A DNA stretch of 41,483 nucleotides from a virus, in the IMG/VR virus record IMGVR_UViG_3300036830_000163, positions 1-41,483 of that record; one strand, written 5' to 3'. Position 1 is the stretch's first letter. Every line of letters starts with the position of its first letter. Of the stretch, positions 1,900 through 38,668 are shown piece after piece. The notes beneath the pieces are model-generated. The model was not told the DNA's origin, ran no database searches, and worked only from the letters and a program-made list of their open reading frames with translations. Position numbers and translations under genes: made by a program.

Positions 1900-2088
1900 T
1901 TATTCCAGTCGGCTATGCGAGAAAGTTATAATTCGCGATGGAAATCTGAATACGCGTAGCGGATGGATGGGGTAGGGGCCATTGTCCGAGCTAGGCATCG
2001 TCTTTTCCGCCTGAAACTCCCCAAGATATAATCTCTTGCGAAGGAGGCGCGCGAAATCCTGATCAATTTCTGCTTTGAATTTAGCCAT
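1900..2088 (-). CDS. Hypothetical protein, 62 aa
   Basis: The first 30 residues form a helical segment (AEIDQDFARLLRKRLYLGEF); the rest is rich in Pro and Arg. The alternative frame 1926-2159 overlaps and is less protein-like. The start abuts the left copy of the 34-bp repeat, so the ribosome site (AAGG) comes from the repeat. Moderate support only. Confidence 0.4.
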   Translation of the reverse strand: MAKFKAEIDQDFARLLRKRLYLGEFQAEKTMPSSDNGPYPIHPLRVFRFPSRIITFSHSRLE

Positions 2089-2121
2089 CCTTCACCATCC
2101 CATCTTCCATCACCACCCCCA
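2088..2121. repeat. 34-bp direct repeat, copy A
   Basis: Identical over 34 bp to 2315-2348 (227 bp apart). On the minus strand copy B encodes the last residues of the ATPase gene (VVMEDGMVKE); copy A still has the same reading potential but lies beyond the stop of 2123-2308. The pair exactly brackets the small ORF 2123-2308. Confidence 0.9.
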
Positions 2122-2122
2122 G

Positions 2123-2308
2123 TTAACTCAGCGAGTAAATCACAGGTTGGCTTGCCCAATGCTCCGGCGGATTGTACTCACCATCGGTTCTTCGTAGCAT
2201 CAATTGCATCATGATTTTCCCCGGCAAAAATGAGGTTTTAGATATGCAAAGATGAAACGATGGTGAGCGATATTCTTTGAAATCGGGGTGTTCCTTCAGT
2301 AACGCCAT
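2123..2308 (-). CDS. Inserted small ORF, 61 aa
   Basis: AT-richer than its neighbours and framed by the 34-bp repeat, this ORF encodes HPDFKEYRSPSFHLCI, MMQLMLRRTDGEY and PPEHWASQPV. It does not match a family I know. AAGGA lies 6 nt upstream of ATG 2308, two bases after the ATPase stop, so it is translated from the same message. It looks like a later addition between the ATPase gene and 1900-2088. Confidence 0.55.
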   Translation of the reverse strand: MALLKEHPDFKEYRSPSFHLCISKTSFLPGKIMMQLMLRRTDGEYNPPEHWASQPVIYSLS

Positions 2309-2310
2309 CG

Positions 2311-3624
2311 TTATTCCTTCACCATCCCATCTTCCATCACCACCCCCACCGTGCCGCTAGAATCGACCTTCGCCATCCAGATTTGAAAGTCGTTTTCCTC
2401 GGCCATCTGCGCCAGCATCGCCAGACTGTCATCGTCGAGCGCTTCGCCGTGCATGATGCGGATCACCCTTAACTTCGGGTTGGCCGCCATCGCAATCGCC
2501 GTGCTCACCCGGATCTGCTCCGCCTCGCCCAACTGCTCCAGCGGAATGCCCTGGAAGGTGACCGCATTGTCGGTCAGCGCCAGTCCCTCGATCGGCATCT
2601 GTGCCTTGGCCATCGCGGCAATCTTTTCTTCGGCGCGGGTTTCCATGCGCCGCGTCAACACGTCGGTCTCGCGCTGCTTCTCGCGCAACTGCTTACTCAC
2701 CCCATCGCGCCGCTCGCGCTTGTCGATCTCGCGGTTGGTGGCCTGCGCTTCCTGTAACTTCGCGGTTAGCGCCGCCACGTCCACCAGTTGCACCTCCGGA
2801 GCGGCCGCAAAATTCGCCATCGACTCCGCTGCTTTAACTGTAAGATTTTCGCTTGCTATTTCGCCAGCGAGAATGTCTTTTTTGACGGACTCCAATTGCT
2901 TTTCGAGTTTTATTAACTCCCGGCGCTGGGATGCCAGAAAAGTCTCATGTGAGCGATAATCGCGCTCCGCATTGTCCACCCGCGCCTTCAGCGCCTCGCG
3001 CTGCTTGAACTGCTCCTGCGCCTTGCGGTTTTCCTCGCCGGCCGCGTTCAGTTCCGCAATCACTGCCGCTTCGTCCAGCTTCTCTTTTGGCAGCGCCGGC
3101 AGCACCGTCATCGTCCCCAGTTGCGCTTCCAGGCGCCGCACCTCGCGGTTCACCTCGGTGCGCGCGGCATAGTCGGCATCGTGGGCCGCGTTCAGCGCAT
3201 CGACGTCAATCTCCACCTTGGCCACCTGGCGCAGCGTTTCCACCTGCTGCTGCGGCTTCATCCCCACAAACTCCAGCGGGTCGAAGCTCAACGCCCCCAG
3301 CAACTGGTCGAGCAGCGTCTGCGGCGAAGTCATGGGAGTGCCCTTGGCGTTCTCCACCTTCAGCGTATGCACGCCGTTCGGCGCAATCGTGCGCGTCACC
3401 GTAAACTCGCCCAGTTCCAGGCGGATGCGCGCCTTCTCCGCCCCTTTGCGCACCGGCTTCTCGGCAATGCCGCGCGAGCCCACCAGCGCCGCCCAGATGG
3501 CATCGAGCACGCTGCTCTTGCCCTGCCCGTTGCGCCCGGTAATCTGCACCACGCGCCCCTGCGGCGTGATTTCCACCACCCGCAGCCGCTTGTAATTTTC
3601 CGCGATTAATCCAATGATTTTCAT
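2311..3624 (-). CDS. SbcC/RecF-like ATP-binding coiled-coil protein
   Basis: This 437-aa ABC-type ATPase of the SMC/Rad50/RecF class has Walker A GRNGQGKSS at residues 30-38, preceded by the strand-loop typical of the family. The middle third (about 150-330) is a coiled coil with long Arg/Glu/Lys heptads. Near the C-terminus the signature-like LGEAEQIRVS is followed by the degenerate Walker B region RVIRIMHGEALDDDS. Phages encode such short Rad50-like proteins for replication or recombination, usually with a nuclease partner; no SbcD homologue is visible. ATG 3624 is preferred over ATG 3633 because it forms TGATG with the upstream stop and has AGGG at proper spacing. Confidence 0.8.
   Translation of the reverse strand: MKIIGLIAENYKRLRVVEITPQGRVVQITGRNGQGKSSVLDAIWAALVGSRGIAEKPVRKGAEKARIRLELGEFTVTRTIAPNGVHTLKVENAKGTPMTSPQTLLDQLLGALSFDPLEFVGMKPQQQVETLRQVAKVEIDVDALNAAHDADYAARTEVNREVRRLEAQLGTMTVLPALPKEKLDEAAVIAELNAAGEENRKAQEQFKQREALKARVDNAERDYRSHETFLASQRRELIKLEKQLESVKKDILAGEIASENLTVKAAESMANFAAAPEVQLVDVAALTAKLQEAQATNREIDKRERRDGVSKQLREKQRETDVLTRRMETRAEEKIAAMAKAQMPIEGLALTDNAVTFQGIPLEQLGEAEQIRVSTAIAMAANPKLRVIRIMHGEALDDDSLAMLAQMAEENDFQIWMAKVDSSGTVGVVMEDGMVKE
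2315..2348. repeat. 34-bp direct repeat, copy B
   Basis: Second copy of the 2088-2121 repeat; it encodes the last ten residues of the SbcC/RecF-like ATPase on the minus strand. Confidence 0.9.
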
Positions 3625-3842
3625 CAGATCCATCCCTTATGTTCGGCCAACTCCCTCAAGATTGCGCAGTGTTTGGAGTGATATTCGGAGTCCGCTAAGT
3701 GGTCGGTGGCTAACTTGATTTGCTCCGCAAAAGGCTGTAACTGTTTATAGGGGGTTTTGGCGATAGCGAACCTGATCGGGACTGTGAGGTTATGGGCCAG
3801 ACAGATTTGATCGGCCAAGTCATCGGAGTATTGTTTCATCAT
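3624..3842 (-). CDS. Hypothetical protein, 72 aa
   Basis: A small helical protein (DDLADQICLAHN, FAEQIKLATDHLADSEYHSKH) that ends in HKGWI. It starts with two tandem ATGs (3842 and 3839) behind the cassette ribosome site GAGGGCGAAAA. It is coupled to the ATPase by a TGATG junction. Function unknown. Confidence 0.6.
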   Translation of the reverse strand: MMKQYSDDLADQICLAHNLTVPIRFAIAKTPYKQLQPFAEQIKLATDHLADSEYHSKHCAILRELAEHKGWI

Positions 3843-3854
3843 TTTTCGCCCTCA
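3838..3854. repeat. 17-bp direct repeat, copy A
   Basis: ATCATTTTTCGCCCTCA is identical at 4018-4034. Each copy contains the start codon and GAGGGCGAA ribosome site of a minus-strand gene. The pair brackets the 56-aa ORF 3852-4022. Confidence 0.85.
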
Positions 3855-4022
3855 GTTCGGTTTTTTGAATTCTAAGATGAAGGAATCGCCGACATATAAG
3901 CGGGTGTCAATACAGCCTGCCATCTTAAAAACGGCGCAACCTCTGCCGCTTTCGAGGGCAATCACAATCTTGCTCTCTTTTGTATCAACCTCGACCTTAA
4001 AGTAAAGCTCGGCTTCAATCAT
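3852..4022 (-). CDS. Inserted small ORF, 56 aa
   Basis: The 56-aa product begins MIEAELYFKVEVDT and continues with SKIVIALESGRGCAVFKM and LYVGDSFILEF, a compact all-beta pattern. It uses the GAGGGCGAAAA ribosome cassette and its stop lies inside the cassette of the next gene. It is flanked by a perfect 17-bp repeat, so it was probably gained by duplication of the start region. Function unknown. Confidence 0.6.
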   Translation of the reverse strand: MIEAELYFKVEVDTKESKIVIALESGRGCAVFKMAGCIDTRLYVGDSFILEFKKPN

Positions 4023-4034
4023 TTTTCGCCCTCA
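4018..4034. repeat. 17-bp direct repeat, copy B
   Basis: Second copy of 3838-3854, 180 bp away, carrying the ribosome-binding cassette and start of 3852-4022. Confidence 0.85.
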
Positions 4035-4038
4035 TCTT

Positions 4039-4305
4039 TCATCCAGCATTGAAACTGGCACAACAAATAAAGCCTTCAGGGATCCCATCTTTGGCAGTCC
4101 CGATAAGTTTAACCTTGACCTGATCGGGATTTTCGGCCCAGGTATCGCTGACCTGGCCTATTGGCATCACCCAATTCCCATCTTGGAAGCGAAGACCGCC
4201 AGGATGAATTTCGCGTGCCGCATTCTCCGATGTCGCCGCCACCACTGCGGCATCGTAAGTGTCGCACTTGGAGTTGATCTCCTGAGTGATAAGCCACAGC
4301 TTCAT
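4039..4305 (-). CDS. Hypothetical protein, 88 aa
   Basis: The start at ATG 4305 is chosen because the cassette-like site GAAGGGCGAA directly precedes it; a much longer open frame upstream is a shadow of 4314-4571. The product (MKLWLITQEINS, YDAAVVAATSENAAREIHPG, WVMPIGQVSDTW) resembles short phage proteins with an alpha/beta sandwich that are seen next to accessory ORFs. It ends in CCASFNAG. Function unknown. Confidence 0.6.
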   Translation of the reverse strand: MKLWLITQEINSKCDTYDAAVVAATSENAAREIHPGGLRFQDGNWVMPIGQVSDTWAENPDQVKVKLIGTAKDGIPEGFICCASFNAG

Positions 4306-8208: not shown

Positions 8209-8210
8209 GG

Positions 8211-13923: not shown

Positions 13924-14750
13924 CAATTCACCACCCCACGCTCGTTGCGCCATTCCCACAACTGCTGCCGGTACCATGCCGAGGCAGCGCCCGTGCCCAG
14001 CGGAAACGCCTGGTGCGCTTCTTTCTCGCTGATTACTCCCAGCCGGACCATCGACAGCAACGCCGTCCTCCAGCCCAGATACTTCGCCGTCGTCGGCACC
14101 CCGTATGCGTCGAAGCGCATTATCATCCACTCCGTCGAGCACGGCCACTGCAGCGTGCCTACCTGCTCCAGGCCGCCGTTGCTGTCCGGTTGCCCGGGCA
14201 GCAGGATCAGCCGCTTCTGCGCCGGCGCCAGCAGCGCCACCCGCTTCAGGACGGCGTAATTGTTCAGCAGCACCCGCCGCTCCCCGATCACCCGGCACAG
14301 CCGGTCCATGAACTGGAACGGAGTCAGAATCAGCCCTACCCGCATCGCCTCGTTATCGCCGCCCAGCCAGCGTCCCTGCCCGTCCCACTGGTTGCCGCAA
14401 CTGGCCATCTGGTTCATCTCGAACAGCATCTGGCTCTTTTCCACCGCTTCCTGCGATGTCTTGGCCTCGCGCTGCTCCCGCGCCAGCCGCTCCAGCGCCG
14501 CCAGCACCCGCGGATGCTGCGCCAGCGCCAGCGAATCGCGCGTGGCCTGCATGTCGATGTCCAGCGGAGAGTCCAGCAGCTGCCCGCGATGCAGTCCCAC
14601 CGCCAGCACGTCGTCGTCATCCACCTGCGGCACAAACTGCCCGCTGCGGATCTCCTCCGCCGCCTTGGCCACTTCCTTGTCCGCCCAGCTTTCCTTGGGC
14701 GCACTCTGGTGCTCCAGCGGGATGTGGATTGCAGGGGCCTCGTTTTTCAT
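13923..14750 (-). CDS. Hypothetical virion-module protein, 275 aa
   Basis: N-terminal half is charged and helical (AALERLAREQREAKTSQEAVEKS), suggesting a coiled coil. C-terminal half (LLPGQPDSNGGLEQVGTL, PTTAKYLGWRTALLSMVRLG) has a conserved-looking Trp/Arg segment. It is in a coupled chain with both neighbours (ATGA at 14747, TGATG at 13923), so probably a structural or assembly protein. Family not recognised. Confidence 0.6.
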   Translation of the reverse strand: MKNEAPAIHIPLEHQSAPKESWADKEVAKAAEEIRSGQFVPQVDDDDVLAVGLHRGQLLDSPLDIDMQATRDSLALAQHPRVLAALERLAREQREAKTSQEAVEKSQMLFEMNQMASCGNQWDGQGRWLGGDNEAMRVGLILTPFQFMDRLCRVIGERRVLLNNYAVLKRVALLAPAQKRLILLPGQPDSNGGLEQVGTLQWPCSTEWMIMRFDAYGVPTTAKYLGWRTALLSMVRLGVISEKEAHQAFPLGTGAASAWYRQQLWEWRNERGVVN

Positions 14751-14932
14751 GCCTGCTTCCCCTCGAAATGCCGTTCAATTCCAGATCTCGACCGGCGAAA
14801 ATTCTTGGCAAAATGTTTAATCGCATCGACCAATTCGTCGTCGATCTTATCAAGATTGATTAGGTCGGCCGCTTCCAACTCTTCTACTAAAATATTCCCA
14901 TAAAATATTCTTAAAGACGCTGCCATCTTCAC
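14747..14932 (-). CDS. Small helical protein, 61 aa
   Basis: Start is GTG 14932, which overlaps the upstream stop and follows the cassette GAGGAGGGCGAACA; ATG 14926 is an alternative. The product is acidic then basic (LEAADLINLDKIDDELVDAI, HFAKNFRRSRSGIERHF). Function unknown. Confidence 0.55.
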   Translation of the reverse strand: MKMAASLRIFYGNILVEELEAADLINLDKIDDELVDAIKHFAKNFRRSRSGIERHFEGKQA

Positions 14933-14950
14933 TGTTCGCCCTCCTCTTTC
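14929..14950. repeat. 22-bp direct repeat, copy A
   Basis: TCACTGTTCGCCCTCCTCTTTC minus its last two bases is an 18-20 bp core repeated identically at 15090-15111 (22 bp in full). On the minus strand it encodes the final EEGEQ of two successive genes and at the same time supplies the next ribosome site. The pair brackets 14929-15090. Confidence 0.9.
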
Positions 14951-15090
14951 ATTTTGATCCCGCAATCGGCGCACCGCCAAACGTAACCGTTAAATACCGA
15001 CTTCGGATGATTGCACTCCGACTGCATGCGAGCGTAGCCACGGAAGAGGTTTAGGAATTGAAGGCTGGACGGTTTTTCCGCTGGAACCAT
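14929..15090 (-). CDS. Inserted zinc-ribbon protein, 53 aa
   Basis: Contains the Cys/His set C26-N-H28 ... C40-A-D-C43, likely one zinc ribbon. It starts at ATG 15090 overlapping the upstream stop and ends in the same EEGEQ stop as its upstream neighbour, because the 22-bp repeat encodes it. The ORF is therefore framed by a perfect repeat at its start and its end, indicating gain by duplication. Function unknown. Confidence 0.6.
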   Translation of the reverse strand: MVPAEKPSSLQFLNLFRGYARMQSECNHPKSVFNGYVWRCADCGIKMKEEGEQ

Positions 15091-15111
15091 CACTGTTCGC
15101 CCTCCTCTTTC
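15090..15111. repeat. 22-bp direct repeat, copy B
   Basis: Second copy of 14929-14950, 161 bp away; encodes the end of 15090-16988 and the ribosome site of 14929-15090. Confidence 0.9.
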
Positions 15112-18832: not shown

Positions 18833-18844
18833 ATTTCTAAACTT

Positions 18845-19204
18845 TCAGCACCCTTTCACAATCTCGACTCGTCCAGGGGAGAAAAACCCTGTACGTCCAA
18901 CCTTCCCGGCGTGGTCGAAAACAGTCCATTTATTTACTAAATGTTCTATGATCCCGAAATTTCCATTGCCATCGCCGAGCAACTCGCATGGCCTTGTTTC
19001 TCGTAATTTACGCAGTTTGGCCAGCATGAACGAGGGAGCATCCGCCTCAGACTTGATCCCCGCTTGCGCGAATTTTGCAACAATCTCCGCGGGGACGTCC
19101 TCATCCCCAAGCCTATTGATTTCCCACCACGTCCCCTCTAAGGAGATGTCAGGAGTCGCAGTATCGGGAGTCGCAGTATCGGGAGTCGCAGTTGTCGAAT
19201 CCAT
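18845..19204 (-). CDS. Inserted protein, 119 aa, with borrowed N-terminus
   Basis: After a Thr/Pro tandem N-terminus (three ATPDT units, clearly homologous to the start of 16970-18832) the protein has a compact domain: LEGTWWEINRLGDEDVPAEI, FMLAKLRKLRETRPCELLG, NKWTVFDHAGKVGRTGFF. The domain reads like a small ligand- or protein-binding fold but I do not recognise it. The body is AT-richer than its neighbours. It seems to have been added between 19217-19819 and 16970-18832 with duplication of the latter's start. Confidence 0.6.
   Translation of the reverse strand: MDSTTATPDTATPDTATPDISLEGTWWEINRLGDEDVPAEIVAKFAQAGIKSEADAPSFMLAKLRKLRETRPCELLGDGNGNFGIIEHLVNKWTVFDHAGKVGRTGFFSPGRVEIVKGC
19167..19204. 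repeat. Imperfect ~38-bp repeat, copy B
   Basis: Start region of 18845-19204, similar to 18795-18832; see copy A. The repeat spans the ATG and about 12 codons. Confidence 0.8.
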
Positions 19205-19216
19205 AATTTATTCGTT

Positions 19217-23861: not shown

Positions 23862-24119
23862 TCAAACTTGCTGTTCGAATAGGTGCCACACGAATCCGCC
23901 GTCGAAGGCCGTGCCGACATATTCCGAGAATTTCGGAATTTCATAACCAGTGCCGATCACGGAAAATGAGCGGCTCACTTTCTTGCGCGCCGGATCAACG
24001 ATTGCCCAAAAACACAGCACTCCGCCCTGCATTGCCACAGTTACAATCTTCGCTTCTTTCGAAATCAAGAATGTCCCGGTACCGCCTTCTCCGAGCAATG
24101 AATATTTCCAGATTTGCAT
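23862..24119 (-). CDS. Inserted small ORF, 85 aa
   Basis: Codes for an all-beta protein (IWKYSLLGEGGTGTFLISKE, VTVAMQGGVLCFWAIVDPAR, VSRSFSVIGTGYEIPKF) with a C-terminal FVWHLFEQQV. Its start region GTAGATCATG is repeated before the next gene (10-bp repeat at 23837-23846 and 24117-24126). AT-richer than the tail gene. Function unknown. Confidence 0.6.
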   Translation of the reverse strand: MQIWKYSLLGEGGTGTFLISKEAKIVTVAMQGGVLCFWAIVDPARKKVSRSFSVIGTGYEIPKFSEYVGTAFDGGFVWHLFEQQV

Positions 24120-25779: not shown

Positions 25780-26202
25780 CTATATTTCAACAAGCGATTG
25801 GAGCCAGTTTTCGACATCTTCAAGGGAAACCGTGATTAAGTTGGCCATCTTTACCATCAGGTCTGGCTCTCTCAGGCCTGGAATGTAAACAGCGGTTGGT
25901 TTCCCGGCGCCTACCGACCAACCCATTTCCATACTCGCTGAGGGTCCACAAGGCATCACCATCACAGTGGCGTCCGCCCACCTCAAAGCATCCATGTCGC
26001 GCTTAAATCCACGTTCGGCGCATTGATGGCTAAGCCCTTCCACGTAGCGACTCGGCGACCAACTAAGCCAAGAGACATCAACCTCTCGCCATGAAAATCC
26101 TTCGCCTCGAAAGTCGTAAACTTCATGCCCAATCTTTCGCAGCCTTGTTACAACCGCCTGCTGGAATTCATTGCGCCAAGAGCTTGCTACGTATATTTTC
26201 AT
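25780..26202 (-). CDS. Nucleoside 2-deoxyribosyltransferase-like protein
   Basis: 140 aa, same size as the family. N-terminal strand MKIYVASSWRN, GHEVYDFR, D70-D/A region DMDALRWADATVMVMPCGPS and the catalytic-Glu motif ASMEMGWSVGAGKPTAVY (E92). The family swaps nucleobases on deoxyribosides or hydrolyses them; phages use it in nucleotide salvage or base modification. It is an AT-richer insert between the two connector paralogues. No ribosome site is seen before ATG 26202; an AT-rich inverted repeat lies just upstream. Confidence 0.75.
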   Translation of the reverse strand: MKIYVASSWRNEFQQAVVTRLRKIGHEVYDFRGEGFSWREVDVSWLSWSPSRYVEGLSHQCAERGFKRDMDALRWADATVMVMPCGPSASMEMGWSVGAGKPTAVYIPGLREPDLMVKMANLITVSLEDVENWLQSLVEI

Positions 26203-28543: not shown

Positions 28544-28753
28544 TTCGTTTCGCCCTCAGAAGCAGTAGTAGTTGCCGGTGGAAACTGTCGAAAGCCGCCT
28601 ATCTATCGAACTTTTACCATCTTACAACCTCCCGTCCTGTGCGTGGACTTGCGGAAATCAGGGGCAAGGCTGAGGAATTTCACCTTCCGGCATACCCTGC
28701 GGAAGTTTCTTCCTCAGCCTCCACCCCCGACTCACAACCTCTTCCACAGCTTT
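28544..28753. other. 210-bp gap with strong hairpin
   Basis: No well-supported gene. A 32-codon GTG frame and a 26-codon GTG frame on the minus strand are open but one or two frame changes would be needed to join them, so a decayed small ORF is possible. The region contains the hairpin 28668-28719 described separately. Confidence 0.5.
28668..28719. repeat. Two-tier hairpin (10 bp + 6 bp)
   Basis: GGCTGAGGAA (28668-28677) is perfectly complementary to TTCCTCAGCC (28710-28719). Inside it CTTCCG (28684-28689) pairs with CGGAAG (28700-28705). An internal loop of purines (GAAA / GUGAAA on the minus strand) separates the tiers. Probably an RNA structure of the leftward late message; a U run is absent. 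Confidence 0.7.
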
Positions 28754-29398
28754 TCAGTTAACGATCTCCACCGTCAACTGCCGCAACTGCGCGCTCGAAA
28801 TCGCCGAGTTCGCCGCAATCGTCACCGTCAGTGTTTCGGCGATGGTCAGGTCAATCGCGCTCGAAGCCGCCGTGCCGGTATCCAGATACATCGCCGCCGC
28901 CGCCGCCGGAGTGTTGGCGCTGATGTTGGCGATAACCTTCCCATGTCCCTCGAACTTGCCGCTGCTGCCGGTGGTGGTCACCGTCAAGGTGAACACGAAC
29001 TGCACCGGCATGTTGGTGCTGGCGGTCGAACTGAAGGCCGCCGCGGTAATCGTGCACAGCGTCACCGCTCCCAGCTTCACCGCAATCGTCATCGCCGGCG
29101 TGGTGGTGCCGGGAGTGGTGTAAATCAAAAAGCCGCAAATGCGCAGCGTACGCAGCAGCTTGTTGAGCGCCCCGGCGGGTATGCTCTTGCTGAGCAGGTT
29201 CTGCGCCGTGGTAATCGTGGTCAGCGCCGTCGGCGCCCCTTCCACCAGCAACGCCGACATCAGCGCCTGCGCCAGCCCCCCATTGCCCACCGCCTCGACA
29301 ATGTTGTTCTGGTTATCGAAGACCAGCGCCCCGATGTTGGTGTTGTCGCCATTCGCCGTCGCCGGCCCTTCGGTAATCTGCGCAAACGGTCCTGACAT
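28754..29398 (-). CDS. Virion/decoration protein, 214 aa
   Basis: Beta-rich protein (GDNTNIGALVFDNQNNIVEA, LTVTTTGSSGKFEGHGKV, AIDLTIAETLTVTIAANSA) with the Gly/Thr/Ala composition of head decoration or fibre proteins. Start ATG 29398 with GAGGATC context behind the operator/promoter cassette. Part of the capsid-module late message. Confidence 0.55.
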   Translation of the reverse strand: MSGPFAQITEGPATANGDNTNIGALVFDNQNNIVEAVGNGGLAQALMSALLVEGAPTALTTITTAQNLLSKSIPAGALNKLLRTLRICGFLIYTTPGTTTPAMTIAVKLGAVTLCTITAAAFSSTASTNMPVQFVFTLTVTTTGSSGKFEGHGKVIANISANTPAAAAAMYLDTGTAASSAIDLTIAETLTVTIAANSAISSAQLRQLTVEIVN

Positions 29399-30060: not shown

Positions 30061-31287
30061 TTAAGTCGTCTGCGGCACCGCGTCGAAGCAGCGCGCGCGG
30101 CTGGTGGTGTCGGGTGGAACCCCGAAAGCCAGAATCGCGTTGTAGCTGGTGCCCGCGCCAATCAGTCCCGCCGGGTCGGCCTGGCTGCCCGGCTTGTACT
30201 CGCCGCGCCACAGTTTCATGTTCTTGTACTTGCCGTCGTCGATCTCCGTCCGGTCGGGCCGGTCCAGCTTGATCGCGATAATCGCGTCCTTGCCGGCCAG
30301 GTACGTCCGCACCGCCGTCGAGCTCCCGCCCTGATAGCTGGCGGTCTGTGTGCAGTTGGTCGAGGTCATCCAGCGGCAGCCGAACATGTCGAAGTAGCCC
30401 AGTTCGTCGCCGTCCGGTCCGTTCGGCAATTCTTCCAGCTTCATCATCCCTTCCGGGGTGTGTTTCAGGATATCGACAATCGAGTTGTTCGAATTGTCGA
30501 GCGCCATGATGTCGCCACCGAAGAAGGGGTGAATCTTGCCATAGTAGTAGCCGCCGCTCATGGCCAGCACGTTCTGCCCCATCAACGAGAACGGCGCCTG
30601 CTCGATCTGCTGCTTGGTCAGCTGGTAGTTGCCCATGGTCACGTCCTGGTTCCCCGTCTTCGAATCCAGCGTGCGCAGGTAATCGAAGTAGGCCATCACC
30701 AGGTCATCGACGGTCAGCGCCAGCCGATAAGCCATTTCCCGCTCGTAATTCATCAAGTCGTCGGAAATCGAGGTCACGAACGACTTGTCGGCAATGTTCA
30801 GGAAGTCGGCCCACTGGCCCAGCTGGTAGTCCTGGTAGTTGATGCTTACCGAGATCCCGCTGCCCACCGTGCCTTCCGTCGCCTGCGTGGTATTCGCCGG
30901 CAGCGGCTGGATCATGAAGTTGCGCCATACCTGTCCGGCCTTCATCGGCATGCTCTCGCGCGTGCACATGCGCAGCATCACCGTCTTGGCCTTCAGGTTC
31001 TCGATAAAGTTGCGATTGTAGTGGGTAGTCAGCGCCGCCTGTGGCGTGTTCCCGCTTAGCATCGAAGTCGGCGAAATGCCGTCGTTCAAAATCGACGCCA
31101 TCGCCTGCATCGATCCCGCGTGCATCAGTAACAACAGCGTTACACCGGCGGCCGCCCCGGCGCCCATGGCCAGGTCGAGCACCGGCTTGAGCACAAAGCG
31201 CGTCATCAGCGCCAGCTGCACCAGCGGCCAGAGCACGTAACTCACCAGCGTCAAAGAAATTTTCTGGATGCGGTTCCAATCCAACAT
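30061..31287 (-). CDS. Major capsid protein, N4-gp56 family-like
   Basis: 408 aa. The body matches the N4-gp56-type major capsid family: ALTTHYNRNFIENLKAKTVM, SMPMKAGQVWRNFMIQPLPA, NYQDYQLGQWADFLNIADKS. It forms the icosahedral shell. Odd: residues 9-28 (ISLTLVSYVLWPLVQLALM) and 33-55 (DLAMGAGAAAGVTLLLLMHA) are two hydrophobic helices ahead of the capsid domain. ATG 31287 is chosen since GGGAGAAG lies 6-9 nt upstream; a start at the later Met residues after residue 55 would remove the hydrophobic part but has no ribosome site I can see. Confidence 0.8.
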   Translation of the reverse strand: MLDWNRIQKISLTLVSYVLWPLVQLALMTRFVLKPVLDLAMGAGAAAGVTLLLLMHAGSMQAMASILNDGISPTSMLSGNTPQAALTTHYNRNFIENLKAKTVMLRMCTRESMPMKAGQVWRNFMIQPLPANTTQATEGTVGSGISVSINYQDYQLGQWADFLNIADKSFVTSISDDLMNYEREMAYRLALTVDDLVMAYFDYLRTLDSKTGNQDVTMGNYQLTKQQIEQAPFSLMGQNVLAMSGGYYYGKIHPFFGGDIMALDNSNNSIVDILKHTPEGMMKLEELPNGPDGDELGYFDMFGCRWMTSTNCTQTASYQGGSSTAVRTYLAGKDAIIAIKLDRPDRTEIDDGKYKNMKLWRGEYKPGSQADPAGLIGAGTSYNAILAFGVPPDTTSRARCFDAVPQTT

Positions 31288-31309
31288 CGAATCTTCTCCC
31301 GGCGCGCGC

Positions 31310-32119
31310 CTACGACGCGGCCTGTTGGGCATAGGCATTGACCAGTTCCTTGAATCCGGCTTCGGTTTCGAATTTCTCCCGAAAGACCTTGGAGTTCATG
31401 GCGTCAATCTCCGCCCGCGTGTACTTCGGCTTCGTTTTCGCCGGCGGCTGCACGGGCGCGCGCAAAGCGCTCGACCGGTAGCTGGTGGCGGCTCGTGGCC
31501 TCTCGACACGGTTCTCCGGATTTCCATCCGGGGCGCTGGGAGGGGTAATAGGTTCCGGGGCGCTGGCTTCGAACAGCATGTTCTGGGCCAGTAGTTCGGT
31601 AAAGCATTCATCGAGCACGGCGGCGGTGATGTTCGGGAAACCGGCCTTCATCGTCGCCCGGTCCAGCAGCATCCGCTGGTTGCGCTCGTCATCGGGAAAC
31701 TCCGGATGCCGCCGCTCCCATTCCTGGGCGAGGTTGGCCACCCGGCGCGTATCCCGGTTGAACTTTTCCTGGTCAAGGTCGAAGCCATTGACCTTCAGCA
31801 GCGTCTTCAGCGCCTCCGGCGCCTTGGCCGGGTTCGACAGGTCGGCCGTCGCCTGCATCTGCTCATCGGCGGTAACCGTTGTAACGCGAGCAGTAGCTAC
31901 CGCCCGCGTTACAGCCGGCGCTGCCGCGGTTGGGGGGGTGTTCCGTTGGCGCGAAATCGTTTGCTGGGCGGTTTCCGCCGTCCTGGCGACCTTTTCCAGC
32001 ACCTCGTCCTTGGTCCAGCCATAGGTGCGGATGGGGTTGGTGCCGTCCTCGGGGTCAATCACCAGGCAGAACTTGGTGCCGCGCCCGTCGATCTCTTTGT
32101 TGTCCCAGTAACGCGCCAT
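31310..32119 (-). CDS. Scaffold/capsid-assembly-like protein, 269 aa
   Basis: Acidic to basic helical protein with Pro/Ala-rich linkers: AETAQQTISRQRNTPPTAAA, DEQMQATADLSNPAKAPEAL, PAKTKPKYTRAEIDAM and a C-terminal FREKFETEAGFKELVNAYA. Encoded just upstream of the capsid gene and without a catalytic motif, this is the standard position and character of a scaffold. Start ATG 32119 directly abuts the stop of 32120-32590. Confidence 0.6.
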   Translation of the reverse strand: MARYWDNKEIDGRGTKFCLVIDPEDGTNPIRTYGWTKDEVLEKVARTAETAQQTISRQRNTPPTAAAPAVTRAVATARVTTVTADEQMQATADLSNPAKAPEALKTLLKVNGFDLDQEKFNRDTRRVANLAQEWERRHPEFPDDERNQRMLLDRATMKAGFPNITAAVLDECFTELLAQNMLFEASAPEPITPPSAPDGNPENRVERPRAATSYRSSALRAPVQPPAKTKPKYTRAEIDAMNSKVFREKFETEAGFKELVNAYAQQAAS

Positions 32120-32590
32120 TTAAGTTCGACTCGCTTTCAGCTTTCCCACTTCCTCGGCCGCCGCTTCCAGCAAATTCGTGCGCACCCGCTTGCCCATCGC
32201 CACGTACGCCCAGCCCTGCGCCAATCCATCGCGGTTCCCCAGCGGATCGTCCTCGCTGAGCAGCCTCATCGCCGTTTCCTGCCGCGCAATCAGGCGGTCC
32301 AGCACCCGCAACACCACCCGCCATCCCGGCTCAAACAGCAGCCGCCGCAGGTGCTCGCGGTCCACGTCGGTTAGATCGCGGACATCGGCAAAGGCCCCGC
32401 TCGAGATTGCCTGCTCCACCACCTGCTCAACTTCCGGCTCGCCCGCGGCCAGCGCCGCTAACGCTTCCGTTAGAGGCTCGTTGCGCAGGTACTTCGCAAA
32501 GTCCATCCCCGGCATTCGTGGTGGAACGGAGGCGCGGGGGTCCTGCTCCGCGCCTCCTTGGTTCTCCGCGTTGGGTACGTCACTCGTCAT
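32120..32590 (-). CDS. Hypothetical head-module protein, 156 aa
   Basis: Helical protein (MDFAKYLRNEPLTEALAALA, EPEVEQVVEQAISSGAFADV, VLRVLDRLIARQETAMRLLS). ATG 32590 follows the portal end at a distance of about 40 nt in the ancestral layout, before the 859-bp insertion between 32615 and 33474. No ribosome site is obvious at the start, which may be a result of the insertion. Not recognised. Confidence 0.55.
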   Translation of the reverse strand: MTSDVPNAENQGGAEQDPRASVPPRMPGMDFAKYLRNEPLTEALAALAAGEPEVEQVVEQAISSGAFADVRDLTDVDREHLRRLLFEPGWRVVLRVLDRLIARQETAMRLLSEDDPLGNRDGLAQGWAYVAMGKRVRTNLLEAAAEEVGKLKASRT

Positions 32591-32614
32591 CACAGGGGTG
32601 TTGATTATGGCGAA

Positions 32615-32633
32615 CCTTACCACTACTGCAACG
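32615..32633. repeat. 19-bp direct repeat, copy A
   Basis: CCTTACCACTACTGCAACG is identical at 33474-33492. On the minus strand it is the end of the portal gene (codons ...CG TTG CAG TAG) and downstream bases. The pair frames the plus-strand gene 32736-33467 with its promoter. Confidence 0.9.
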
Positions 32634-32637
32634 GGAG

Positions 32638-32667
32638 TTGCAACCAAAAACCTCAATATGATAGAAT
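32638..32667 (+). promoter_or_regulatory. Plus-strand promoter inside the inserted segment
   Basis: TTGCAA (32638-32643), 18-nt spacer, TAGAAT (32662-32667). It drives 32736-33467 rightward against the direction of all surrounding genes, so the inserted gene can be expressed on its own. Confidence 0.5.
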
Positions 32668-32735: not shown

Positions 32736-33467
32736 ATGATGTATGGCAACCTCTTTGCAATCGCCGTTAAAGTCGGCGGGAAAATCCTGCGCGAATCGAG
32801 CGAAACTGTAACCCTTCCGTTTGGCTCTGAATATTCCATCCTGCTAAAAAATATCAACTCTGTGCGCGTTCAAGCCAAAGTCACTGTCAACGGCACCGAT
32901 GCCGCTGATGGTTGGATTGTGGTCGCACCGAATTCGTCTCTCGATTTTGAACGGTTTGTCAGCAATGGCAACTTTAATTCCGGGAATCGTTTCAAGTTTA
33001 TCGAGCGGACGGCAGAGATCGAGGCGCACCGGGGCATAGATTCAGATGATGGATTGGTGCGAGTCGAGTATAAATTCGAGGTCACAAGGCCAGCGGTTCG
33101 TTATTGCGACGTACCAATTCCGCGCCCATGCCCTTATCATCGCCCTCCGGTGCGCAAGCTGATGCATTCCGCTCGCTCGATGGGCCCGCAAGCTAGTGCA
33201 GGAATTTCGCAACAGCGGCGATTTAACGATGCTGGGATTACAGTCGCTGGCAGTAAGTCCAACCAGAAGTTCGTTGCAGTTGGTTGGTTTGAGACTGAAG
33301 CGCAAAGCTATGTCCTCGTTCTAAAGCTTCGCGGGGTCATCGCCGGAAAGCAGGTCCAATTCCCGATCACCGTCGACCACAAACCACAATGTTCGACTTG
33401 CGGTAAAACCAACAAAGCAGGAAATCAGTTCTGTTGCGGTTGTGGCGCAAGCCTGATTCTGTTTTGA
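32736..33467 (+). CDS. Inserted plus-strand zinc-ribbon protein
   Basis: 243 aa. The N-terminal ~110 residues form a beta-sandwich-like domain (MMYGNLFAIAVKVGGKILRE, TVTLPFGSEYSILLKNINSV, FVSNGNFNSGNRFKFIERT) of a family seen in other phages. A Pro-rich linker follows. Residues about 210-240 form a zinc ribbon (C219-X2-C222-X10-C233-X2-C236). AAGGA precedes ATG 32736. It is the only plus-strand gene in the late region, has its own promoter and hairpin, is AT-rich and is framed by a 19-bp repeat, all signs of recent insertion. Confidence 0.7.
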   Translation: MMYGNLFAIAVKVGGKILRESSETVTLPFGSEYSILLKNINSVRVQAKVTVNGTDAADGWIVVAPNSSLDFERFVSNGNFNSGNRFKFIERTAEIEAHRGIDSDDGLVRVEYKFEVTRPAVRYCDVPIPRPCPYHRPPVRKLMHSARSMGPQASAGISQQRRFNDAGITVAGSKSNQKFVAVGWFETEAQSYVLVLKLRGVIAGKQVQFPITVDHKPQCSTCGKTNKAGNQFCCGCGASLILF

Positions 33468-33473: not shown

Positions 33474-33492
33474 CCTTACCACTACTGCAACG
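33474..33492. repeat. 19-bp direct repeat, copy B
   Basis: Second copy of 32615-32633, containing the portal stop codon. 859 bp separate the copies. Confidence 0.9.
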
Positions 33493-35632
33493 TGTCGGGC
33501 AAGCCATTTTTCAGCGCATCCACGTCGGCGGCGCGTTCCACCAGTCCCGCCGCGCGCTCCAGCGGCACCCCATCGGCGGCGTGCTGCATTACCACCTCGG
33601 CCGCCTTGTTGCCCAGGTCTACCTGCCCTTGCGTCTGGATTTCCCGCAACTTGTTCGCTCCCTTGGCCTGCTCCTGCGCCACCACCGCCTTCACCCGTTG
33701 CATGCCCGGGTTCATCTGCCCCAGCATCTGCTTTTCCTCGGGAGTCAGGGGGCGGATAATGTCCGGCTGCTGCGTCAACTCCGCCACCTGCATGAACAGA
33801 TCGACGATCACCGCAAAGTCAATCGTCTCCCCGCGCTGGTGCAGGTATTCGAGCAGTTGCGGCTGCTGCACCATCTGCAGGAACAGCGGAATCAGCTGCT
33901 GGATGCCGGCCCGCGCCGCCAGTTTTGCCCCCGCCAGCACTTCCACTTCGAACTGCGCGTCCAGAAACTGGTCCTGCGCAATCGCCGATTCAATCACCGC
34001 CGCGTGCTTCTCCGAAAGCATCTCGCGAATTTCCTTGAGCGGCATCTTCAGCTTCACCATGCGCACCAGGAACTGGATCACCGGCACAATCACGCCCTCG
34101 GCCATGGCGTCAATCGGGTCGGCCACGTTCTGGTCGCTCGCCGCTCCCACCCGGTTTACCCCGGTCGCGGTGCGCGCCACGCTCGAGCCCGGGCCGCCAA
34201 TGTTGCCCTGCTGCATCTGCGGGCTGGCGCCGCTGATGTCCTCGCCGCTTTTCTGGGAATATTCCAGCATGCTCCAGGCGTCTTTCGGCACCTGCGGCAT
34301 TTCCATGAAGCCCACGCCCTTGCGCACGTCGTCGGAATCCACCTGCCAGAAGCCGCCCAGCCGCGCCAGCACGTTCTGCGTCGGCGAATTGATGCCGCGG
34401 CCCACCAGCAGCGGCGCGTTCATCGGGTAGGCAATCATCTTCAGGCATTCGTTGATCACGCCCTGGTTAATGCGCTGGTCGGCCCCGTTGATCTTGCCGA
34501 TGCCCATGCCATAGCCGGAATTGTCGATGTTCCACCAGTTGGCGGAAAAGTGCAGCAGGCTCTCGTAATCGTGCTCTTCATTGCGGATGGTCAGCATCCG
34601 CCCGTCATAGCACAGCACCGTCTTCACCGTGCGCATGTCCCACTGCTCCAGCAGCAGCAGCGGCTGCTCCAGCGGCGAAGCGTCGGTCTGCCGGTTACGC
34701 CCTTCGGCATGGGCCGCCATGCTGCCCTGCGAAGTCATGGTGTCCTCAACCGACGATCCGGTAGGCGCCGAGCCCGCCTGCCGATTGAAGAAAAATGCTT
34801 TCAGAATCTCTTCCTTGGGGATGTTCTGGTAGCAGTCGAGCTTGCGCATCTCCTGCAAGTCGGCGAAGTTCACATAATCAACATCGATGCAGTACCCCGC
34901 ACTCTCATCGGGAGCGTTCGGAGTACACCACTTCGGGTCAAACAGCGTCGTGCCGATGCGGCGATACTCGTAAAACGGCCAGCTTTCGGTGACTGTGGTT
35001 TCGACCGTCTCAAACTCGTCGCTCTCTTTGGTCGGAATCTCTTTCGGCGCCCCCATCGGCATTTCCGCCCTGATGGGCTGCTGCTTGCGCTTGCGCGTCT
35101 TTTTGGTGACGGTGCGCTCTTCCCATCCCGCCTTGCCGATCCCCGTCCCCTGCAACACCTGGCAATCGATCTGCAATCCGGCGTGGTACTTGAACTTCAT
35201 CCGCTTCAGCAACTTGCCGATCAGGTCGCTCCACGCATCCACCTCCACCTGCGTCGTCTTCCCGCTCGGTCGCAGAAAAAACGGATACTGCTCGGCAAAC
35301 AACCCGCGCTTCACCGCCCGCGCCAGCGTGGTCTTGAACTTTGCCACCAGAAAGCGCGGCACCCGCGTCGGCCGCCCTTGCTGCACCCGGATAAAGCGGT
35401 CCGGCGTCGGCGACTGGTAGAGGATGTCCGCTTCCTGCCAGTCCAGCAGCCACGCGTTATTTTCAACGTAGTTGCGCGCCTGCTGGTAGTTCTGCCACAC
35501 CAGCGTAGCCACCGCGTCGGCGGTATAAACCGGCGCGGCAACGTTGCCTTCGGCAGTCTCGACCTGCACAGCACGGATGGGCAGCGAGATATATTGACCA
35601 ACCGGCATCACCCCGGCAGTTTCTTCAGGCAT
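33482..35632 (-). CDS. Portal protein
   Basis: 716 aa, the right size and place (between terminase and scaffold) for the portal of a short-tailed phage. Recognisable segments: WLLDWQEADILYQSP, RPTRVPRFLVAKFKTTLARA, FKYHAGLQIDCQVLQGTGIG, WPFYEYRRIGTTLFDPKWC. A charged C-terminal coiled-coil part (VVAQEQAKGANKLREIQTQG) forms the barrel. Starts ATG 35632, with GAGG 6 nt upstream, overlapping the methyltransferase end by 8 nt. Confidence 0.75.
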   Translation of the reverse strand: MPEETAGVMPVGQYISLPIRAVQVETAEGNVAAPVYTADAVATLVWQNYQQARNYVENNAWLLDWQEADILYQSPTPDRFIRVQQGRPTRVPRFLVAKFKTTLARAVKRGLFAEQYPFFLRPSGKTTQVEVDAWSDLIGKLLKRMKFKYHAGLQIDCQVLQGTGIGKAGWEERTVTKKTRKRKQQPIRAEMPMGAPKEIPTKESDEFETVETTVTESWPFYEYRRIGTTLFDPKWCTPNAPDESAGYCIDVDYVNFADLQEMRKLDCYQNIPKEEILKAFFFNRQAGSAPTGSSVEDTMTSQGSMAAHAEGRNRQTDASPLEQPLLLLEQWDMRTVKTVLCYDGRMLTIRNEEHDYESLLHFSANWWNIDNSGYGMGIGKINGADQRINQGVINECLKMIAYPMNAPLLVGRGINSPTQNVLARLGGFWQVDSDDVRKGVGFMEMPQVPKDAWSMLEYSQKSGEDISGASPQMQQGNIGGPGSSVARTATGVNRVGAASDQNVADPIDAMAEGVIVPVIQFLVRMVKLKMPLKEIREMLSEKHAAVIESAIAQDQFLDAQFEVEVLAGAKLAARAGIQQLIPLFLQMVQQPQLLEYLHQRGETIDFAVIVDLFMQVAELTQQPDIIRPLTPEEKQMLGQMNPGMQRVKAVVAQEQAKGANKLREIQTQGQVDLGNKAAEVVMQHAADGVPLERAAGLVERAADVDALKNGLPDTLQ

Positions 35633-36347
35633 GCGCGACCTCGGGTAACTTATACGTTCTCGCGATGTGGCTGGCCAGCGTAAAGGGAATTTTGGCGATC
35701 ATGGCGGAAGCCGCCTTGCGGGCGGGCGTTCCACTGCTCGTTACTCGCGAAATCTTTCCCTCGCCAGCGAACCATTCCCGTCCTGAGCCGCGCTGCTTGA
35801 CCCCTTCCATCACCGCAACCGATTTAGCGTGCCCGTGAAAGTTCCTCGTCCCGTCCGCCCGATGTATAACGCCAGCTTTCATCACTGGCCTCCCGAACGT
35901 GATCGGCATCAGCGCCGGCACATCTCCCCACAGGTAGTAACTCCCAAAGTGCCACTTCGCCCGACCGACCCATTTCTGCGCGCCTCTGACGTTCTCTACG
36001 ATCAGCGGAATGTACCTTCCCGCCGCTTCCGAGGCTTCCCGCTGAATCCGAAAGCACGCCTCGAACAGAGTATTGTCCGGAGGCGGTAGAGCCTTGGCGC
36101 GCGCCCACGGCATAGCCCGGTAGCTGTACGCCTGACACGGCGGACTCGCCACAATCACCGCCGCGTTCCTGAACTGCGAGCCGTACAAGGTGGTCACGTC
36201 CTGCAACACCAGTTGCCCCGGATAGCCGCCGCTCCCGTAATCGTGCCGCTCAACGTCGAACCCAATCACGCGAAAGCCTTCTGCCAGCAGCCCTTCGGCC
36301 CAGCCGCCCAGCCCGCAGAACAGGTCGATTGCCAGGGAGTCAGCCAT
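35625..36347 (-). CDS. C5 cytosine-specific DNA methyltransferase
   Basis: 240 aa, short for the family but complete. Motif I DLFCGLGGWAEG (residues 8-19), motif IV with catalytic Cys71 (ASPPCQAYS), motif VI ENV (118-120), and a C-terminal stretch resembling motif X (SAMIAKIPFTLASHIA). The target-recognition region (about 130-200) is small. It methylates cytosine in DNA; orphan copies in phages protect against host restriction. Encoded between TerL and portal, overlapping both, so it belongs to the packaging operon. Confidence 0.9.
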   Translation of the reverse strand: MADSLAIDLFCGLGGWAEGLLAEGFRVIGFDVERHDYGSGGYPGQLVLQDVTTLYGSQFRNAAVIVASPPCQAYSYRAMPWARAKALPPPDNTLFEACFRIQREASEAAGRYIPLIVENVRGAQKWVGRAKWHFGSYYLWGDVPALMPITFGRPVMKAGVIHRADGTRNFHGHAKSVAVMEGVKQRGSGREWFAGEGKISRVTSSGTPARKAASAMIAKIPFTLASHIARTYKLPEVAHA

Positions 36348-38022
36348 CCAGCCCTCCCAGAATGTCGGTCAACCCGAACGTCTGTACCGCTTCCATCGCC
36401 ATGCGCTGCGCCGCTTCCGCCTGCTGCTGTTTCTCTTCGAGCTCATAGCCGCCGCCCGCGCCGCCAAACACAAACTGCGCGTAAATTTCATGCCGCCGCC
36501 GGATCTGCATTTCCCGCTCTTCCTCTTCCATCTCCGCCCGGAACAGGCTCATCGGCACTTTGGCCGCCATGCGGCTCAGGCAGTCCACCAGCCCGTTTTC
36601 TTCCACCAGCCCGAAATGTAGGAGTTGCCTCCTTAATTCCGCCGCCCGCCCAGTGCCCGTCGATATCCAGATGCGCCCCGCGCGCGCCTGCGGCTCCAGC
36701 GAGCGCATCCGCTCCATGCGGTCGGTATCGTCTTCCTGAAATTCCAGCCACTGCATCCGCAGGCTCCAGTTGCGCTGGGTCGCCTCGTTGCGGATGTGCG
36801 TTTCCATGTACTGCGTTCCCGGCAGGTCTTCCATCATCACCGTGTTGGTCTGGTGGCGTTTGGCTTCCTCGACAATCTTGTGTGCCAGCCGGCTCGGCGT
36901 GTACGTCCCGCCCCAGGCGTCGATCACATAGACCTTGCCCTCCCAGATGCGCGCCGCAATCCCCTCCGCCTTGTCCGCCATGTAGGGCTTGCCGGAATAG
37001 GGCAGCCGCCAGCAGATGAACGTCTCGCCCAGTCCCGGCACGCGCTCTTCCGCCACCAGCATCGACTGGTACAGTTTCTCATCGAACACCGCCACGCTGC
37101 CACCCTGCGGATCGTTCTGCTGCTGGCACATGAACGATTCGTAGTTCTCGAAAAACTTCTGCCGCAGGCTGCGGTAATCCATGTTCGCGAGGCCGGGGAA
37201 TTCGAGCACCACATCGTCCTCGTCGGGAAATTCCCCCGGCAATAAGCGCCGCCCGCTCTTCACCGTCAAACTGGCGCGCACCAGCACCGCCCATTGCTCC
37301 GGGTCCATCTTCTCAATCACGTGCCCGTACACATCGAAGGGATGGTAGCGTGTACCGCGAAGGTTAAGATAGCCGCCGTGCCGCAGCAGGTTCAGGTTGG
37401 TGTCGTAGGTGTCCTTCACCCGCTGCCGCGATTCGCTCGACGCGTGGATGCCGCTGTTGAGCGTGTCCGCCATATCGTCCGGGTTCAACACCCAGGGGTG
37501 CCAGCCCGATTGCGAACTCTCAGGCGAAGTATAGGCCAGCGTGGTGTCGATGTCTGTAACGTCATGGTTAGGCGTGTTCCACACCGGCTTGGGCTCTTTA
37601 TCGACTACCAGTTCCGGAAACGCCAGTTGCAGCAGCGAAGCCGCGCGCCCCTTCTCGCGCCAGAAATAAATCGCAATGCCCTTGGAGATCGCGGCCGCCA
37701 GCGGCTGGGTCGCCGATTCGTTGAGGATGGTAATGCTTTCCGGAAACGCCATCACCCACTGCAAGCTGTCCACGCGCCCGAGCGTGGTCTTGAAAGTGTG
37801 TCGCGGATCGAGGTGCAGGCGGCGCTTTTTGGGGTGTTGCGCCTCGATCGGCAATAGCGGATTTTTCGGGAAGTAGAGATCGACAGCGGGCTTGTGTAGG
37901 ACAGGGTCGAAGTTGCGGAAGCCCATCATCTCCGCCAGGAAAAAGTGGTCAGTAAAACAGCGATGGCGAATCTCATCGCGATATTCGCCATCCTGCTCCA
38001 ACTTGTCGGTGTCGAGAATCAT
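36340..38022 (-). CDS. Terminase large subunit (TerL)
   Basis: 560 aa. Walker A-like DPRHTFKTT at residues 72-80, then a Walker-type VMAFPESITILNES stretch, with the nuclease domain in the second half (KAEGIAARIWEGKVYVIDAW). Drives packaging and cuts DNA at genome ends. No small-terminase gene is recognised next to it. C-terminal tail is Gln/Glu-rich. Overlaps the methyltransferase by 8 nt. Confidence 0.8.
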   Translation of the reverse strand: MILDTDKLEQDGEYRDEIRHRCFTDHFFLAEMMGFRNFDPVLHKPAVDLYFPKNPLLPIEAQHPKKRRLHLDPRHTFKTTLGRVDSLQWVMAFPESITILNESATQPLAAAISKGIAIYFWREKGRAASLLQLAFPELVVDKEPKPVWNTPNHDVTDIDTTLAYTSPESSQSGWHPWVLNPDDMADTLNSGIHASSESRQRVKDTYDTNLNLLRHGGYLNLRGTRYHPFDVYGHVIEKMDPEQWAVLVRASLTVKSGRRLLPGEFPDEDDVVLEFPGLANMDYRSLRQKFFENYESFMCQQQNDPQGGSVAVFDEKLYQSMLVAEERVPGLGETFICWRLPYSGKPYMADKAEGIAARIWEGKVYVIDAWGGTYTPSRLAHKIVEEAKRHQTNTVMMEDLPGTQYMETHIRNEATQRNWSLRMQWLEFQEDDTDRMERMRSLEPQARAGRIWISTGTGRAAELRRQLLHFGLVEENGLVDCLSRMAAKVPMSLFRAEMEEEEREMQIRRRHEIYAQFVFGGAGGGYELEEKQQQAEAAQRMAMEAVQTFGLTDILGGLDG

Positions 38023-38194
38023 TCTAAAAATCTAATTCGATGACAGGACTCGATACCTGCTAGATGAACCACGTAGGTGCTTCCTCTAGTCTTGCTCCGG
38101 TCAACTCATCACTTAAGACTACCGCTCCGGCTGTGAGGCGTATGCACTAACTGTGAAGAGCGCGTGTCCTTCCACGCCGCATCGAAAACTTTTA
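38023..38194. other. 172-bp gap upstream of TerL
   Basis: No coding ORF. A GACAGGACTCGATACCTGC element (about 38044-38062) resembles a tRNA T-arm read on the minus strand, but acceptor and anticodon pairing fail, so no tRNA is called. Probably the leader of the TerL transcript. Confidence 0.5.
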
Positions 38195-38360
38195 TCAAAA
38201 CCACGGCTCTGCCGCTGGCGCCGCTTCCATCGTTTTCTCCAGCCGCGCGCCGATAGTTCCGAAACTGCGACTCCGATCATAAGATCGATCTTTGCTTTTT
38301 GTTCCGGAGTGAAAATTTGTCATAAGTAAGTTCATTTCCGAAGGCATCTACCACTTTCAA
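38195..38360 (-). pseudogene. Frameshifted small ORF with duplicated C-terminus
   Basis: Three adjacent frames give one coherent peptide: KVVDAFGNELTYDKF from TTG 38360 (overlapping the stop of 38357-38668), then FTPEQKAKIDLMIGVAVSEL, then RLEKTMEAAPAAEPWF to the stop at 38195-38197. Two frame changes break it. The last codons and 16 bp (38204-38219) are identical to the C-terminal region of 38357-38668 (38366-38381), so it looks like an inserted ORF that later decayed. Could also be a set of assembly indels. Confidence 0.55.
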
Positions 38361-38668
38361 ACCCCCGGCTCTGCCGCTGGCTCCACCCCCGCTTCCGGTT
38401 GCTCCTCGGGCGCGCCGCCTCCGGCAGCCCCGCCTTGCATCACCGGCCCCGCGTTGTCGTCCATGTGCGCGTGCAGGTCTTCCATGTTGCTGCTGGTGCC
38501 CGCAAACACCGGCGGATGCGAATGGTGGTCTTCCTTCTTGTCTTTATAGACGTGCTCATGGCCGGCGGTGCCGTCATGCGCGAAGGTGGTCACGATCTGG
38601 TGCAGGTGCTTCTTGGGCTTTTTGCCTTTATCTTTCGGCTCCGCCGCGTGCTCTTCTTTTTTCGCCAT
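38357..38668 (-). CDS. His-rich protein, 103 aa
   Basis: Lys-rich start (KEEHAAEPKDKGKKPKKHLH) then a His/Asp-rich part (GHEHVYKDKKEDHHSHPPV, NMEDLHAHMDDNAGPVMQGG) and an acidic Pro/Ala tail ending EPAAEPGV. A conserved phage family of unknown function; the histidines suggest metal binding. It precedes the TerL region and is followed by the duplicated pseudogene end. Confidence 0.6.
   Translation of the reverse strand: MAKKEEHAAEPKDKGKKPKKHLHQIVTTFAHDGTAGHEHVYKDKKEDHHSHPPVFAGTSSNMEDLHAHMDDNAGPVMQGGAAGGGAPEEQPEAGVEPAAEPGV

Follow-up and report, generated by a model that had tools for sequence, protein, structure and literature searches.

The window analysed here, the whole of an IMG/VR viral record (IMGVR_UViG_3300036830_000163; 41,483 bases), encodes a soil phage with nearly all of its genes on the minus strand. 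At six loci, an inserted open reading frame (ORF) is framed by two copies of a direct repeat that matches the end or the start of a neighbouring gene (Table 1). Five of these repeats were found where an earlier note, made from the sequence alone, had placed them, with perfect matches over 34, 17, 22, 19 and 16 base pairs (bp), the last lying within a 25/28 match between 38195 and 38357. The weaker cases in that note fared differently: the imperfect repeat 18795/19167 (36 of 42 positions identical) is judged real, whereas the 10-bp pairs 23837/24117 and 4861/5063 are background noise, and are uninformative since 37 repeats of at least 12 bp occur at that spacing in the window. The note had described the inserted ORFs as small; at 32615/33474, the ORF encodes 243 amino acids (aa) and lies on the opposite strand. 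The repeats had also been said to adjoin older genes; however, at 38195 a further ~170 bp precede the terminase gene, and in three of the five strong cases the next ORF past the repeat (1900–2088, 3624–3842 and 14747–14926) is itself accessory and without relatives.

Table 1. Repeat copies, inserted ORFs and landmark genes of the window; cases are numbered as their repeats.
Feature	Position	Strand	Remarks
Repeat 1, copy	2315–2348	−	Final 11 codons of the ATPase gene 2311–3633 (440 aa), reaching to just before its stop; 34/34 versus 2088–2121
Inserted ORF, case 1	2123–2308	−	61 aa; G+C 0.45
Repeat 1, second copy	2088–2121	−	Last base is the A of the ORF 1900–2088 start codon; GAAGGA start signal
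Repeat 2, copy (TGAGGGCGAAAAATGAT)	4018–4034	−	Supplies start signal and start codon of ORF 3852–4022; 17/17
Inserted ORF, case 2	3852–4022	−	56 aa; start and stop each within a repeat copy
Repeat 2, second copy	3838–3854	−	TGA stop of ORF 3852–4022, then start signal and start of ORF 3624–3842
Repeat 3, copy	15090–15111	−	KEEGEQ and stop of a 639-aa gene; has GAGGAGG; 22/22, extended 29/33
Inserted ORF, case 3	14929–15087	−	52 aa, zinc-finger-like; final codons KEEGEQ-stop are the repeat, in frame
Repeat 3, second copy	14929–14950	−	Precedes ORF 14747–14926
Repeat 4, copy	33474–33492	−	Portal gene end with TAG stop; 19/19; single copy in G002 and G006
Inserted ORF, case 4	32736–33467	+	243 aa; opposite strand; zinc-ribbon C-terminus; promoter-like site 32638–32667
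Repeat 4, second copy	32615–32633	−	Upstream of gene 32120–32656
Repeat 5, copy	38357–38384	−	C-terminal codons and stop of gene 38357–38668; 25/28, exact 16-bp core 38366–38381
Inserted ORF, case 5	38195–38347	−	50 aa; end APAAEPWF-stop resembles the upstream neighbour's EPAAEPGV-stop
Repeat 5, second copy	38195–38222	−	At the end of the inserted ORF; exact core 38204 pairs with 38366
Repeat 6, copy, imperfect	19167–19208	−	36/42; start of inserted ORF 18845–19204 (MDSTTATPDTATP)
Inserted ORF, case 6	18845–19204	−	119 aa; first ~13 codons copy the N-terminus of the downstream 620-aa gene
Repeat 6, second copy	18795–18836	−	Start of the 620-aa gene (MDPATTTPDTATP)
SbcC-like ATPase	2311–3633	−	440 aa
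Major head protein	30061–31338
Portal	33482–35632
Terminase large subunit	36340–38022		PHROG 38

Exact direct repeats of at least 15 bp at a spacing of 40–1500 bp number exactly five in the window, and there are no others. The enrichment that the earlier note had proposed to check is clear: five repeats of at least 16 bp were observed against 0–0.22 expected under four null models, and three of at least 19 bp against none in any simulation. In case 2 the repeat straddles the start itself; in the other five cases, one edge of the repeat is no more than ~8 bases from where a gene begins or ends. The five repeats have no common sequence, a GAGGGCGAA core alone being shared by two of them. The framed stretches are, as had been noted, richer in AT, with a G+C content of 0.44–0.52 compared with 0.62 in backbone genes.

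Besides the landmark genes in Table 1, the window encodes an endolysin-like protein. When the portal was searched against an annotated phage collection, the sole match was Tunturi_3, a phage of the acidobacterium Tunturiibacter (33% identity). Terminase searches yielded 55 related contigs (labelled in the style G001), across which the order of the backbone genes is kept. No relative closer than ~70% DNA identity emerged when the 440-aa ATPase, the 620-aa protein, the portal or repeat 1 served as the query, and a GTDB scan likewise gave no closer relative of the window.

None of the 55 contigs carries any of the framed window ORFs, in agreement with the earlier claim that they are additions; for ORF 2123–2308, Pfam and PHROGs also gave no relative. 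Most framed ORFs have no relatives anywhere searched. The two exceptions are ORF 23862–24119 (DUF7352/PHROG 3848), which has no significant repeat, and ORF 32736–33467, which is 34–37% identical over 98–100% of its length to hypothetical proteins of the jumbo phages XacN1, CM1 and RAS14. Both show that an ORF of this type can be a real gene acquired by transfer. When compared with a moron, an extra ORF with its own promoter and terminator, ORF 32736–33467 was seen to lie on the opposite strand and to have a promoter-like site (9 of 12) and no terminator-like site. As to donors, an IMG/VR scan with this ORF returned nothing and the phage collection distant homologues only, and searches with ORFs 14929 and 18845 found none. 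Another accessory ORF (25780–26202) has a weak match to nucleoside 2-deoxyribosyltransferase (E 0.001, below cut-off). Scans for transfer RNA (tRNA) genes and Rfam families gave no match, and this includes the ~170 bp between the repeat 5 copy and the terminase gene (38023–38194), a stretch without a clear ORF that is absent from G002 and G006.

An empty counterpart of case 4 is present in G002 and G006, where the portal gene and the next gene nearly abut and one diverged copy of the repeat is found. At the case 5 junction, 3 bp separate the two genes in the same contigs. Junctions in this family are tight, with gaps that typically range from −8 to +16 bp in empty relatives. A single repeat copy at the empty site, which the earlier note had anticipated, was thus seen for 32615/33474 and also for the terminase/portal cases of the relatives described below. 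Such a copy does not prove insertion, since deletion between repeats leaves an identical site.

The layout recurs in the relatives, with start signals and stops kept intact, as had been surmised for the window, and with repeats of ~17–67 bp, so that this is no target duplication of fixed length. At the terminase/portal junction, G017, G023 and G025 carry an ORF of ~64–67 aa framed by ~17–21 bp that are present once in G008, G015 and G018. This ORF ends LDG-stop in G023 and G025, as the terminase does, and starts MAEEL like the portal in G017 and G023. In G016, a ~37-bp repeat spanning the junction surrounds a 136-aa ORF (28682–29092) whose start, MSAK, is that of the next gene and whose end, LRNERVM, is as in the previous gene (LRNERGM). 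G045 holds a stack of diverged terminase-end and portal-start copies (49–67 bp), including an ORF that fuses the portal start to the terminase tail. Judged from the sequences, the most telling joint is that between G011 and G026: in G011 the gene lying upstream of g21350 has an N-terminus of its own (KIVKADEIVIGQ...), and in G026 the first 16 codons of g21350 are fused in frame to the same gene (MPGPIESAGGIKEPTEVVVGQ...), with a 49-bp repeat present twice. The fusion appears to be joined at a short shared CGAA, a microhomology read from the sequence that could be chance. Hybrid ends are likewise seen in the window, where the end of the upstream gene recurs at the end of ORFs 14929 and 38195, and the start of the downstream gene at that of 18845. 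The repeats in G037, G038, G032 and G034 and the large ones in G011 consist of whole genes or repeat proteins duplicated in tandem and were set aside; those in G015, G022, G024 and G004 frame no clear ORF at a gene junction and were not counted as support.

Since all contigs come from metagenomic or viral-survey assemblies, strain variants might have been joined artificially during assembly. However, the repeat–ORF–repeat arrangement is present with diverged sequence in three separate contigs (G017, G023 and G025), the hybrid ends are in frame and the repeats are located at gene ends; we regard an artefact as the least credible of the alternatives. A mobile element or nuclease that inserts small ORFs and leaves target-site duplications would account for the layout and for the one clean copy at empty sites. 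Yet the repeats range from 16 to about 67 bp, the inserts lack shared ends and the ORFs terminate inside the repeats, unlike an intact element. Moreover, the framed ORFs gave no match to a transposase, an integrase or a homing endonuclease, nor to any recombinase or endonuclease, and terminal inverted repeats, ends shared across inserts and a target duplication of fixed length were not found. The variable lengths and the absence of shared ends rule out fixed target duplication, and an element of any kind, already disfavoured, is very improbable.

The filled terminase/portal junctions also bear on which state is older. If the filled state were ancestral, empty sites would arise by deletion between the repeats, which would let ORFs come and go by homologous recombination, an alternative named by Pope et al. 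(2011) for Island3/Brujita (PMC3029335). Among G017, G023 and G025, the ORF and its flanks have diverged to the same extent (81–87% and 82–90% identity, respectively), and the empty G015 and G018 group with the filled genomes, as expected after loss. Both observations are compatible with loss of the ORF, but the trees are weakly resolved, the origin of locus-specific repeats is left unexplained, and gain is needed because one junction can hold a different ORF from relative to relative. Deletion from an older filled state is therefore unlikely to be the whole account, although loss through recombination between the repeats is likely also to take place.

The terminase/portal junction is an insertion hotspot, with different inserts in most relatives; in the window, a cytosine-5 DNA methylase gene (35625–36347) lies there. 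The terminase large subunit gene is itself interrupted by ~670–760 bp in L109:4261-6681 (G052), L107, L108, L110, L111, G026 and G055. In L109 the frame stays open (807 aa) and weakly matches Hint and intein splicing domains (E about 1e-5, short of the curated cut-offs), and the insert is probably an intein next to the FMC motif.

Repeats of other kinds were also noted. Near the right end of the window, 18 bp occur twice, 23 bp apart (41220–41260), and 19 bp occur twice, 24 bp apart (40513–40555); these tandem-like repeats sit where relatives have iteron arrays. In G009, G015, G017, G018, G020, G023 and G025, at least four copies of a ~20-bp iteron-like element (e.g. CGCTGAAACGGTACCCCC) lie in the last ~1 kb, at the end opposite the early genes, possibly as an origin or regulator array. 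In G008, G009, G015, G018, G021–G023 and G025, a repeated element ending CCCAGCACCGAAAGGA or CCCCACACCGAAAGGA precedes early ORFs in the first ~2 kb; it has a short inverted repeat (e.g. TGGGC...GCCCA) and may be a PeSL-like or shared leader element.

Among pairs of relatives at least 84% identical, a duplication scores at least 10 over a no-duplication model in 5 of 26 insertion clusters, compared with 4% in the null; in a looser set, 5 of 86 insertion sites exceed the 99% null. When the ends of nearby genes (adjacent or one gene apart) were compared, exact repeats of at least 16 bp numbered 14 of 6160 in the family, a count that includes some whole-gene tandem duplications, against 1 of 6944 for distant genes and, with heuristic gene calls, 0 of 6588 for nearby gene ends in T7-like phages. 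We conclude that the layout is recurrent in this family and is not universal.

The T7-like phages (71 clusters) do have many sites with weaker duplications. Most of these short apparent duplications reflect similarity of ribosome site plus start (e.g. GGAGGTTGCNTATGAG), raising the possibility that repeats in general are merely the like start sequences expected at both ends of any inserted gene. This may hold for the 17-bp repeat 3838/4018, as its GAGGGCGAA core is also present elsewhere. However, four of the five repeats in the window take in, over 16–34 bp, coding sequence of the upstream gene or its stop, and exact repeats of that length are absent from the T7-like phages. Pure ribosome-site similarity is rejected for the longer repeats (34, 22 and 19 bp), and as an account of the layout it is very improbable.

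Our preferred explanation, at a probability of roughly 0.65, is that gene junctions underwent illegitimate recombination, either non-homologous or through microhomology, at offset break points. One phage molecule would be broken, or left by the polymerase, at a point p1 just past a junction, and the end joined to foreign DNA or to an accessory gene of a sibling phage. The new DNA would then be joined to a second phage molecule of the same type at p2, upstream of p1, so that the stretch p2–p1 would be duplicated, with one copy on each side. The offsets would be random. Since genes abut or overlap and start signals lie within the end of the upstream gene, products that lose sequence would kill a neighbour, whereas those that duplicate the junction would leave both neighbours intact. 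The copied junction would lend the captured fragment a start signal, start codon or stop, making it expressible even when severed from its own ends. The same layout could be reached either by capture of a fragment into a junction or by a crossover, out of register, between two phages whose accessory genes at that junction differ. The crossover would be the simplest reading for cases 1–3, in which accessory ORFs flank a repeat copy; capture fits better if the repeat spans the junction, as in G016 and in G017, G023 and G025. The repeats, the accessory status of the ORFs, one empty site for the window, the hybrid ends and the recurrence in relatives are observed; how the molecules were joined, and that selection acts as the filter, is what we infer. 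Offset joints with selection can explain the variable lengths, the location at gene ends, the hybrid ends, the stacking and the absence of a shared sequence.

Several observations weigh against this reading. No close relative of the window was found, so that for four of the five strong cases an empty site could not be demonstrated at the DNA level, the junctions being too diverged for base-level comparison. Most insertions in relatives have no detectable repeat; these may be old or may have brought their own start signal. Finally, T7-like phages have similarly tight junctions, yet no exact repeat of at least 16 bp, so that something may raise the rate in this family. No dedicated machinery for junction duplication was found. 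The earlier note had gone further and proposed a mechanism that specifically duplicates junctions. This was not borne out: the repeats differ in length and have no sequence in common, neither a transposase nor a terminal repeat was found, and only a minority of the identifiable insertions in relatives carry a repeat. Ordinary illegitimate recombination, with selection for intact neighbours, suffices.

How a phage can take up orphan genes where essential genes are tightly packed, and break none of them, is an old question. A more tentative proposal, which we think doubtful as it stands, is that junction duplication might be a frequent and reversible route of gain here: with a start signal, start codon and stop given by the junction, an arbitrary captured fragment would be translated as a gene straight away, and could be removed cleanly when the two copies recombine. 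A phage or host enzyme might also raise the rate of such joints. Since repeats left by offset joints would record both break points, comparison of many genomes could yield event rates, offsets and microhomology. Hybrid ends call for caution too, as an N- or C-terminal peptide common to neighbours does not amount to whole-protein homology.

The closest parallels are in mycobacteriophages. In Island3, the orphan ORF gene 68 has 18 C-terminal residues copied, over ~50 bp, from the end of its upstream neighbour, and LRRHood genes 43–46 are a 1.35-kb addition with 29-bp direct repeats at gene ends, one copy of which is found in relatives (Pope et al. 2011, PMC3029335). Those authors discussed both gain and loss and read the cases as recombination between existing repeats (PMC3029335). 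As in both, the ORFs added here are framed by a direct repeat from the end or start of a neighbour (five exact cases and one imperfect), and a single copy is found in relatives lacking the ORF (32615/33474 and the relatives' terminase/portal cases). As in gene 68, ORF termini copy those of neighbours (14929, 38195 and 18845, and in G016, G023, G025, G026 and G045). Unlike those single cases, five or six occur in one genome here, with more in relatives, and some ORFs take both start and end from neighbours. The mosaicism model of phages, illegitimate recombination with selection (summarised in PMC3029335), likewise has non-homologous joints near gene boundaries that are retained as genes stay intact; its usual footprint is substitution, whereas the offset here leaves a measurable duplication. 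In the PeSL cassettes of T4-type phages, as cited in PMC4503421 (Arbiol 2010; Comeau 2014), repeats at junctions are tied to the shuffling of small ORFs. From that account, PeSLs are one cassette at many loci, whereas here each repeat copies its own junction and the repeats differ from one another; the early-region repeats of the relatives (CCCAGCACCGAAAGGA) look closer to PeSLs so described. The rice insertions of Vaughn and Bennetzen (2014), as cited in PMC6097286, arise in break repair with flanking tandem duplications and, on that description, likewise place new DNA between two copies of a target stretch of variable length; that case is eukaryotic end joining. A transposon or MPME-type element differs in that no target duplication of fixed length, terminal inverted repeats, or recombinase or endonuclease match is present here. 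Single cases being known from mycobacteriophages, junction duplication in this phage is a recurrent and more elaborate instance of a kind already described.

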